Shown here piece after piece: positions 16,946 to 18,985 of a DNA stretch of 64,000 bases (the stretch's first letter is position 1; each line of letters begins with the position of its first letter). The stretch lies in contig NZ_VFNP01000002.1 in assembly GCF_006715635.1 (NCBI RefSeq), positions 3,100,001 through 3,164,000 of the forward strand, given 5' to 3'. The notes under the pieces are model-generated. The model was given only the letters and a program-made list of their open reading frames with translations, was not told the origin of the DNA and searched no databases. Both the position numbers and the translations under genes were made by a program. This DNA is from Streptomyces sp. SLBN-118. Lineage in GTDB: Bacteria; Actinomycetota; Actinomycetes; Streptomycetales; Streptomycetaceae.

Positions 16946-17314
16946 GTGCCCGGAATCGACGAGTGTCTGCTGGCGGCCATGACAGTGCCGGGCGCGCGCG
17001 GAGCGTCCCTCGTGGACTGGATCAGCGGCCTCGCGCTCGGCGCTGTCGGCGAGGCCGCCGGCGACGACCACGAGGCCACCGCCGCGGAGACCGCCGAACT
17101 GGCGAGGATGGCCACCGAATACGCCACGGAGCGGGGCCCCTCGGTCGAGGACCTCATCCTCACCACTCAGAGCGCCTACCACCTGGTGCATTTCGTTGAG
17201 ACCGGCTTCGACGCCACGGTGTTCCTGCATCTGTGGCTCGACCGGGACCAGGGCAATCTCGCCCTGGCCCGCATACGGCTGCGGAATCTGGCCGAGGGGC
17301 TGGTGCTCGTATGA
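16946..17314 (+). CDS. Roadblock/LC7 domain protein (first of three)
   Basis: About 122 residues. The central pattern GASLVDWISGLALGAVGEAA followed later by VEDLILTTQSAYHLVHFVE and LHLWLDRDQGNLALARIRL is the roadblock/LC7 fold. It aligns along its length with the protein at 18611-18985, so the two are paralogues. GTG 16946 is preferred to ATG 16925 because GGAAAGGGAG is correctly spaced before it. The stop overlaps the next gene (ATGA). Such proteins usually regulate small GTPases, but none is encoded in this cluster. Confidence 0.85.
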   Translation: MPGIDECLLAAMTVPGARGASLVDWISGLALGAVGEAAGDDHEATAAETAELARMATEYATERGPSVEDLILTTQSAYHLVHFVETGFDATVFLHLWLDRDQGNLALARIRLRNLAEGLVLV

Positions 17315-18087
17315 GAGCGGCCGTGTCCCCCATGCTCCTCAGACTCGCCGACGAACGCGCCACGGGCGTGCTGGTCCGCGACCACGGCGCCCTCTATCTC
17401 TCCGACGGCCAGGTCGTGCACGCCGAGAGTCCCCGGGCGCCCGGACTCGACGTCCTGCTCACCGCGAGCGGCCTGCTGGAGCCCGACAGCTGGGCGGAAG
17501 CGGTCGCGCAGGCGGGCGCACGCTGCGAGGTCGCCCGCTTCCTCGTCGACAGCGGCCAGGTGGCCGGGGGCAAGCTGGAGATCTGCCATCTGGGCGCGCT
17601 GTTCGACGCGGCCTTCTTCGCGCTCGCGCCGACCGGCGGGCCGACCCGCTTCCGCTACGGGGTCGTCCACTGGATCGGCAGGGTGCGGCCGGTGCCCACC
17701 GAGGTCGTGGAACGCGAGGCCAGGCGGCGAAGCCGGCTGCTGGACTCCGTCTGGCCCCACCCCACGGTCGACACCGCTCCGGTGGAGCGCCGCGCGCACC
17801 CCACGGCGCGGGCGGTCAGCCCGCTCAGGCAGGCCCTGCTCGAACTCGCCGACGGCGTACGCACCCCGGCCGCCATCGCCAGAGCACTGGGGCGTCCCGC
17901 CTTCAACACCCTCATCGAGGTACGGAGGCTGGCCGCCGACGGGCTCATCGAGACGCCCGACAAGTCGGCGCTGCCCAGTCGGCCCGCTGCCACCGCCGCC
18001 ATCGCCGCCGAGGCCACCGAGTCCCCGTCGGTCCTGGACTCCGCCCTGCTCCGACGGCTGCGCGACGCACTGGAGGCAACCCTGTGA
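17311..18087 (+). CDS. DUF4388 (PATAN-like) protein with C-terminal winged helix
   Basis: A 258-residue protein translationally coupled to the preceding roadblock gene (ATGA). The N-terminal 110 residues follow the DUF4388/PATAN pattern: LRLADERATGVLVRDHGALY, then LSDGQVVHAESP, LDVLLTASGLLE and a second helical part ending LGALFDAAFFAL. Residues about 165-225 (ALLELADGVRTPAAIARALG, then LIEVRRLAADGLIETPD) look like a winged helix. DUF4388 proteins occur with roadblock proteins and GTPases in bacterial polarity and motility systems. The function here is unknown. Confidence 0.75.
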   Translation: MRAAVSPMLLRLADERATGVLVRDHGALYLSDGQVVHAESPRAPGLDVLLTASGLLEPDSWAEAVAQAGARCEVARFLVDSGQVAGGKLEICHLGALFDAAFFALAPTGGPTRFRYGVVHWIGRVRPVPTEVVEREARRRSRLLDSVWPHPTVDTAPVERRAHPTARAVSPLRQALLELADGVRTPAAIARALGRPAFNTLIEVRRLAADGLIETPDKSALPSRPAATAAIAAEATESPSVLDSALLRRLRDALEATL

Positions 18088-18166
18088 GGCACCGCTCCGT
18101 CCACCTGGTCCTTTTCCCACCGTCATGAGGCGCGCGATGAGGCTGCGCGCCGAGAGGAGAGCACTC

Positions 18167-18553
18167 ATGAGGGCCGAGGCCGACCTGCTCGCCGAACTGA
18201 AACGCCTGCGTATACGCGTACCGCAGCTCACCGGCGCACTCGCCTCCAGCTCGGAAGGGCTCGTGCTGGCGGCCGACACCGAGGAGGCGGAGAGCGTCGC
18301 CTCGCTGACCGCCGCAGCGCTGCGCGCAGCGCTGCGGCTCACCGAGGCGACCGGACAAGGGGCCTTCCGCGAGCTGCTGGTCCAGGGCGAGCGGGGATAC
18401 GTCGCGACCTATGCGGCGGGTTCCTCGGCCCTCCTCACCCTCCTGGCCGAGCCGCGTATCAACGTCGGCCGGCTCCACCTCGAGGCCCGACGCTCCGGCG
18501 CCCGTATCGGCGAGCTGGTGGACGGCGCCCTCGACCGACCGGAGAACACCTGA
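18167..18553 (+). CDS. Roadblock/LC7 domain protein (second of three, CvnB-like)
   Basis: About 128 residues. VPQLTGALASSSEGLVLAAD and FRELLVQGERGYVATYAAGS followed by LHLEARRSGARIGELVDGAL place it nearer to the CvnB/MglB-like branch than to the two flanking paralogues. ATG 18167 is chosen because GAGGAGAGC precedes it; ATG 18125 and 18137 upstream lack such a site. It is the third gene of the four-gene cluster, with an 80-base gap from the DUF4388 gene. Confidence 0.8.
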   Translation: MRAEADLLAELKRLRIRVPQLTGALASSSEGLVLAADTEEAESVASLTAAALRAALRLTEATGQGAFRELLVQGERGYVATYAAGSSALLTLLAEPRINVGRLHLEARRSGARIGELVDGALDRPENT

Positions 18554-18610
18554 CCCATGACCGACACACCATCGCGATCAACCAGCAGACGGAAAGGAAG
18601 TGCGCATCCC

Positions 18611-18985
18611 ATGGCCAACACCGAACGCGCCCTCAAGGAAGCCACCACTGTCATCGAGGGTGCCCTGGGCGCCGCGCTCGTCGACTACACCAGCGGAATG
18701 GCCCTCGGCACCATCGGCGGCGGAAAGGATCTGGACCTGTCCGTGGCGGCGGCGGGCAACACCGATGTGGTGCGCGCCAAGGTGCGCACCATGGAACAGC
18801 TCGGGCTCAAGGACGGCATCGAGGACATCCTGATCACGCTCGGCACGCAGTACCACCTGATCCGGCTGATGAAGGGCCGGAACGCCAGCGGCCTGTTCCT
18901 CTACCTGGCACTCGACAAGGACCGGGCGAATCTCGCCATGGCCCGGCACCAGCTGAAGAAGATCGAGGCCGAACTGGAGGTCTGA
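18611..18985 (+). CDS. Roadblock/LC7 domain protein (third of three)
   Basis: A 124-residue paralogue of the protein at 16946-17314: compare GAALVDYTSGMALGTIGGG, IEDILITLGTQYHLIRLMK and LYLALDKDRANLAMARHQLK. ATG 18611 is preceded by GGAAAGGAAG; ATG 18557 in the same frame is an alternative that adds a basic 18-residue leader. It is the last gene before a strong hairpin. Confidence 0.85.
   Translation: MANTERALKEATTVIEGALGAALVDYTSGMALGTIGGGKDLDLSVAAAGNTDVVRAKVRTMEQLGLKDGIEDILITLGTQYHLIRLMKGRNASGLFLYLALDKDRANLAMARHQLKKIEAELEV

Follow-up and report, generated by a model that had tools for sequence, protein, structure and literature searches.

The window analysed here is a 64,000-nucleotide stretch of the genome of Streptomyces sp. 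SLBN-118. At positions 16946-18985 it carries four tandem genes on the + strand, designated A, B, C and D, and none of the adjoining genes encodes a GTPase. Gene A (16946..17314; 122 aa, GTG start) encodes a roadblock/LC7-like protein, assigned through homology to D because its Robl_LC7 match is below the cut-off, and its reading frame shares four bases with that of gene B (17311..18087; 258 aa), which encodes a protein with an N-terminal DUF4388/PATAN-like part, a C-terminal winged-helix-like part and a conserved final helix. Gene C (18125..18553; 142 aa) encodes an MglB-like roadblock protein of the Mgl-operon lineage, as judged by Robl_LC7 and by phylogeny, and gene D (18611..18985; 124 aa) a roadblock protein recognized from its structure model and fold match. 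For D there is an alternative in-frame ATG at 18557; the later Met is the start in 24 aligned relatives. The gene upstream of A presumably encodes a PLP-type decarboxylase-like protein, and the convergent gene downstream of D is taken to encode an RpiR-type regulator.

Between D and this convergent gene lies a perfect 14-bp inverted repeat (18993..19030, + strand), with arms at 18993-19006 and 19017-19030, a loop of 10 nt and a folding energy of -35.4 kcal/mol (z -5.96), and with no T run on its 3' side. In a collection of 80 D-bearing loci, perfect arms of at least 10 bp were found 3' of D in 36, as against 1 of 80 shuffled sequences (one shuffle per locus), and the hairpin is probably a terminator. 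The reading frames and the repeat thus bear out the first-pass annotation, made from the window alone, in describing a four-gene unit that ends in a perfect 14-bp hairpin. Among the MglA-family GTPases found in the genome, the one closest to the unit is the CvnD of the window, ~12 kb upstream of A. It belongs to a complete conservon, CvnABCD, at 1802-4551, and at 4548-7099 there are two further genes that we take to be P450-like.

Three roadblock proteins and a candidate winged-helix protein

Among the three small proteins, only C is recognized outright by the Pfam profile Robl_LC7, with 58.9 bits against a cut-off of 23; A reaches 18 bits, under the same cut-off, the profile matches only 2 of 24 aligned A proteins, and D has no Pfam match. 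The weak calls for A and D can nevertheless be accepted as roadblock proteins, in view of the fold of the D model and the homology of A to D. The model of D, with a pLDDT of 91.7, shows the element order α-β-β-α-β-β-β-α, which is the roadblock topology, and Foldseek comparison with the PDB matches it to Myxococcus xanthus MglB (E 9.9e-7, TM 0.81), as well as to LAMTOR2/p14 and MglC. A and D, which share 35% identity over 118 aa (E 4e-21), are paralogues on sequence grounds. All three proteins are members of the roadblock/LC7 superfamily, C by Pfam, D by its model and Foldseek matches and A through its homology to D, and the proposal of three roadblock proteins, two of them paralogous, is upheld.

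The four proteins differ in conservation: mean column identity over 24 aligned rows is 89% for D, the most conserved, and 38-49% for A, B and C. A search of proteins with a D profile returned only near relatives among the best 120 of at least 7999 candidates. The length of A ranges from 124 to 259 aa across 77 loci, and a Pro/Ala/Gly-rich loop in mid-protein was seen to be very variable in length (L006, L007, L047, L060, L030 and L062). In C, position 67 of helix α2, which sits in the stretch alignable to Thermus MglB, is Gly, Ala, Ser or Thr in many Streptomyces proteins and Arg in the C of the window. Substitutions in helix α2 of MglB may block MglA binding. No such effect was found in the accessible text of PMC11016934, and it was given no weight here.

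The DUF4388 part of B is below threshold in the window, where PF14332 scores 15.9 bits against a cut-off of 25 and is not matched at E <= 0.01. At that E-value 13 of 23 aligned B proteins do match, the best at 5.9e-6, and three B proteins from two loci in which the genes stand with a GTPase (L131 and L132) score 58.5 to 114.9 bits. The B model (pLDDT 86.4) comprises two folded parts and the final conserved helix; residues ~170 to 215 look like a winged helix, as read from the helix order of the model, and Foldseek against the PDB returned nothing at E <= 0.001. This reading is backed by the GTPase operons of L132, where two relatives of B have DUF4388 followed by a weak, sub-cut-off match to a MarR-/TrmB-type winged helix. 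DUF742 was matched weakly by 2 of 23 B proteins. A search of PHROGs gave no match.

Distribution and gene arrangement

To collect relatives, one genome per species was scanned with the D protein, and the best 80 of 554 confirmed relatives gave 80 loci. By tblastn the complete order A-B-C-D was found in 77 of these D-selected loci, and in 76 of the 77 all four frames are open, the A of L002 looking frameshifted. The three incomplete loci are L072, which keeps A, C and D without B, and L069 and L080, which have D alone. A profile-based count gave 69 of 80 full units as against the 77 of tblastn, lower because overlapping matches had been collapsed and because A outscored D in some loci. GTPase profiles found no match in 79 of the 80 loci, with up to 8 kb of sequence read on either side; the one positive locus is a conservon beside a lone D, and when CvnA, CvnC and CvnD of the window were compared with the 80 loci by tblastn they matched in L069 only, where D is present without the unit.

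Since the 80 loci had been picked by D, 121 Streptomyces genomes were searched in addition. B was found in 100 and D in 103; 99 genomes have both, 1 has B only, 4 have D only and 17 have neither (Fisher p 5e-16, uncorrected for the relatedness of the genomes). In 95 of the 100 B-bearing genomes D lies 473-2154 nt downstream of B on the same strand. The five exceptions are three genomes with B at a contig end (G276, G261 and G338), one with B and D on separate contigs (G354) and one in which they are divergent (G358). Comparison of gene neighbourhoods, the check put forward with the first-pass annotation, thus showed the genes staying together in Streptomyces, and a GTPase adjacent to them in most relatives was not found there. 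B is absent at E <= 1e-10 from 21 of the 121 genomes, from which we conclude that the function of the unit is non-essential.

In a class-wide set of 394 genomes B was found in 62, namely 37 of 40 Streptomyces and, counting only B-bearing genomes for the other families, 17 of family f77, 5 of f78, 2 of f3 and 1 of f74. In f77 the order roadblock-B-C-D, with all four genes scored, was found in 14 of 17 loci, the best profile for the first gene being D in 11 of the 14 and A in 3. The other f77 loci are L277 and L282, without a separate C call, and L276, with an A-like gene, B and C only and with a GTPase and a roadblock match 6-7 kb off. Both B-bearing f3 genomes have the order roadblock-B-C-D. 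All 9 f78 loci have B and D in divergent orientation; C is beside D in 5 of 9, and A was scored in none. Some Streptomyces have a second cluster (7 loci read, L181-L187), in which D is divergent from an A-like gene, B and C, all three on one strand. That one set of parts recurs in differing arrangements speaks for a common task.

A second pair, B'-C', was observed in the window's own genome (G000) at L127:8495-11252 (G000:C1, ~2866500-2869250). It consists of a divergent B relative, which has no DUF4388 match, and an MglB-like roadblock gene. A LysR-type gene precedes the pair, and the 18 kb read gave no GTPase match.

D also occurs by itself. Thirty-eight lone copies were examined, and 33 of them, in 32 of the 121 Streptomyces genomes, are followed on the same strand, 150-249 nt downstream, by an ArsR-family gene; the neighbours were identified by similarity to one ArsR-family protein, and Pfam confirmed the family in all 3 tested. 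The five misses are G295, the second copies of G340 and G310, G182:C18, where an ArsR-type gene lies 1.6 kb on, and G268:C21, where one lies on the opposite strand. The link is stronger from D's side, there being many ArsR-family paralogues away from D. Six of eight lone-D loci read with longer flanks contain no GTPase. What the unit and the lone D copies have in common is that a roadblock protein is encoded next to a winged helix in the absence of a GTPase; in the unit, B has the one candidate domain of this kind. The window's own genome has such a pair at G000:C1:808134-809034 (L126:10117-11038), a lone second D followed by an ArsR-family winged-helix gene.

GTPase-bearing relatives and the descent of the unit

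In a phylum-level sample of 246 genomes, B was found in 11 genomes outside the class, and in 8 of the 11 an MglA-type GTPase is encoded within ~1.2 kb of B (in G231, 1.7 kb from a partial B). The order C-B-GTPase was found in seven genomes (G001, G032, G131, G146, G164, G185 and G221), and B stands with a GTPase, a gene X, C and D in G221 and G231. Of the remaining genomes, G046 ends at a contig edge, G151 has no GTPase, and G134 has a CvnD-type GTPase 3.7 kb off, which was left uncounted. An ATPase with T2SSE and MshEN domains (PilB-type) lies near the GTPase-type operon in 7 of the 8 genomes; the contig of G231 spans only 7.8 kb. The D profile, run against 24 genomes of the class of G221, matched G221 and G231 only. 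One further candidate for a GTPase-linked unit, L176, was rejected, its GTPase being 3.7 kb distant and in the CvnD clade. X is a conserved protein of ~220 aa, encoded between the GTPase and C in the out-of-class Mgl-type operons (L132:10334-10993 and L131:2237-2905); it has no Pfam match, and one of the two proteins, compared with PDB sequences, gave nothing below E 0.28.

Within the class there are two exceptions, G405 (f74, L284), with C-B-GTPase, and G139 (f5, L134), which has a distant D-like gene beside a weak roadblock match and a divergent GTPase. Among D homologues without B, that of G204 is adjoined by a roadblock gene, and those of G237 and G005 and a second one of G139 have none of A, B, C or a GTPase nearby.

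The CvnB proteins form one clade (100/98) in a tree built from 47 roadblock domains. The C proteins of the unit, of the divergent clusters and of the B'-C' pairs, together with the f3 and G204 rows, join instead the C proteins of L131 and L132 (99/95), which are operons with a GTPase, X and D. C is thereby ruled out as a CvnB relative. The first-pass annotation had called one of the roadblock proteins CvnB-like and had named CvnD as a candidate partner; the former is contradicted by the tree, and the case for CvnD as the natural partner falls with it. In the B tree, which carries an unlike-composition warning for 7 of 37 rows, a single branch (100/100) parts GTPase-linked from GTPase-free B proteins. 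In the D tree the D of the unit and that of the GTPase operons are in one clade (100/100), apart from A, and A is not one clean clade, the program warning of long branches there. These trees are unrooted, and with that proviso the loss of the GTPase is well supported, the unit looking like an Mgl-type operon minus its GTPase. Loss is simpler than gain in that CvnB and the Mgl-type operons lie outside the GTPase-free clade of the C tree, and the absence looks derived because 8 of the 11 out-of-class genomes have an MglA-type GTPase next to B and C, with a pilus motor ATPase in the vicinity in 7 of those 8.

In the window's own genome the search turned up no GTPase of the expected lineage. The GTPase profile gave 12 matches there, of which 11 are MglA-family proteins and the twelfth is part of a 1042-aa frame, presumably a translation factor. 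Every one of the 11 groups with the CvnD proteins (100/100), and 10 of them adjoin conservon genes. A GTPase search of 10 further genomes gave matches in all 10, and of 10 loci put in the tree 9 are in the CvnD clade and L225 (G139) groups with L134. MshEN, the PilB-type motor domain, had no match at E <= 1e-4 in any of the 121 Streptomyces genomes, the control being matched in 5 of 14.

Three further features of this genome were noted in passing. L206 (L238:8116-9174; G000:C2:3485508-3486131) holds a gene for a CvnD-type GTPase that contains a repetitive Gly-Thr-rich insert; a serC-like gene adjoins it, and its vicinity lacks a roadblock gene. At L088 (L239; G000:C2:1132636) a conservon has matches to CvnA, CvnB and CvnC, and a GTPase was not found in the surrounding 18 kb. 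At L081 and L085 (G000:C1:826709-829165) a conservon has an extra roadblock gene after CvnD, giving the order CvnA-B-C-D-B.

Possible roles and known systems

Bacterial roadblock proteins have mostly been studied as partners of small GTPases. The unit is at about an even chance, in our estimate, the descendant of an Mgl-type operon without its GTPase that now serves as a roadblock-gated winged-helix regulator, a reading built on its conservation, its kinship with GTPase operons, the missing GTPase lineage and MshEN, and the ArsR-family genes that follow lone D copies. The ancestral state would be that of other Actinomycetota, in which B and C accompany the gene of an MglA-type GTPase and type IV pilus motor genes are close by. 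In the Streptomyces line the GTPase and gene X would have been lost, with B, C and D kept and a second roadblock gene, A, present. We infer that B is held by a mixed complex of the three roadblock proteins, much as in MglC-MglB and Ragulator, and that this complex, subject to some input signal, would gate access of B's winged helix to its target, most simply DNA; the assembly would then be a regulator working without a GTPase, with a putative role in gene control. B's winged helix could instead be a protein-binding module. A wider proposal, which we put forward tentatively and hold less firmly, is that actinomycete roadblock proteins derived from a pilus-linked Mgl operon serve as GTPase-independent co-regulators of winged-helix factors, in A-B-C-D as in D-ArsR.

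The first-pass annotation left two options, a GTPase encoded elsewhere or a GTPase-independent assembly, and it is the latter that gains support from the 33 of 38 lone D copies followed by an ArsR-family gene. Action in trans on one or more CvnD GTPases, or on the lone serC-adjacent CvnD-like protein, in place of the lost cognate, is in our judgement unlikely. The genome does offer 11 CvnD-type GTPases, one of them (L206) without a roadblock gene near, a lone D lies within a few kb of a conservon in L069 and L138, and the small residues at position 67 of many Streptomyces C proteins would suit such a partnership, unlike the Arg of the window's C. However, C is outside the CvnB lineage, the conservons examined have their own CvnB, and no GTPase was found within the flanks of 79 of the 80 loci or in most of the lone-D loci read, the lone copies mostly pairing with ArsR-family genes.

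We also regard as doubtful a role for the unit as a scaffold (cytoplasmic polarity or membrane) left over from pilus control, with B's winged helix contacting a protein and not DNA. It would fit the pilus motors that flank the operons of relatives, the reported binding of the PilB1 motor by PixE, a PATAN response regulator (PMC7690835), and the ability of roadblock proteins to build scaffolds, as described for MglC-MglB in the available part of PMC7949163. Against it are the lack of MshEN matches in the 121 Streptomyces genomes and the pairing of lone D with a gene of a transcription-regulator Pfam family (Pfam on 3 genes). That the unit is a decaying, functionless leftover is very improbable: the presumed original GTPase is gone, MshEN was not found, B is missing from 21 of 121 genomes and from L072, and A is frameshifted in L002, but D is conserved at 89% mean column identity over 24 rows, the gene set and order are kept across families, and four open frames persist in 76 of 77 loci.

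Among the closest known systems are the MglA/MglB/MglC polarity modules of Myxococcus and Thermus, which resemble the unit in that C is MglB-like, several roadblock paralogues occur together and the unit's relatives carry an MglA-type GTPase beside pilus motor genes. They differ in that the unit has no neighbouring MglA-family GTPase, the GTPases found in the genome are of the CvnD type, the genus sample gave no MshEN match and the unit adds a PATAN-winged-helix protein. Ragulator, the LAMTOR scaffold, serves Rag GTPases. It shares with the unit its many roadblock subunits and the LAMTOR2 match of the D model, whereas no GTPase partner is known for the unit. In PMC7949163, so far as its accessible text goes, MglC binds MglB in a 2:4 arrangement through an interface distinct from that of MglA. 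With conservons the unit shares an actinomycete roadblock protein; CvnC, too, matches winged-helix families, and 2 of 23 B proteins match DUF742 weakly. Unlike conservons the unit has no CvnA, CvnC or CvnD beside it, and its C is outside the CvnB clade. B appears to carry the PATAN (DUF4388) domain of the cyanobacterial regulators linked to type IV pilus motors (PMC7690835, in part), unlike which it has a winged-helix-like part instead of a receiver domain, in a genome without an MshEN match.

In the open-access papers searched we found no account of the unit's composition, including DUF4388 with roadblock or MglA, and DUF4388 by itself led only to work on a Chloroflexi nitrite reductase, available in part. 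The accessible portion of Wuichet and Sogaard-Andersen 2014 (PMC4316618) describes a small actinobacterial MglB clade, all orphans and not flanked by conservons, to which C, by that description, probably belongs; its main text is without the term DUF4388, and the four-gene unit is not described in it. What the present analysis adds is a widespread, non-essential roadblock unit without its GTPase lineage, for which GTPase-bearing relatives are at hand for comparison, so that what orphan roadblock genes do in bacteria, a long-standing question, is made directly testable in laboratory Streptomyces. The D-ArsR pairing is an independent hint of roadblock roles without a GTPase. If the regulator reading is true, the unit would represent a new class of signalling module, with roadblock adaptors serving winged-helix regulators without a GTPase.

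One roadblock protein is reported from all 205 Streptomyces strains, with no definitive function, in the available part of PMC9640686. The conservon accessory proteins CvnE and CvnF, a P450 and a GAF protein according to the accessible text of PMC13343842, are different from the proteins of the unit.
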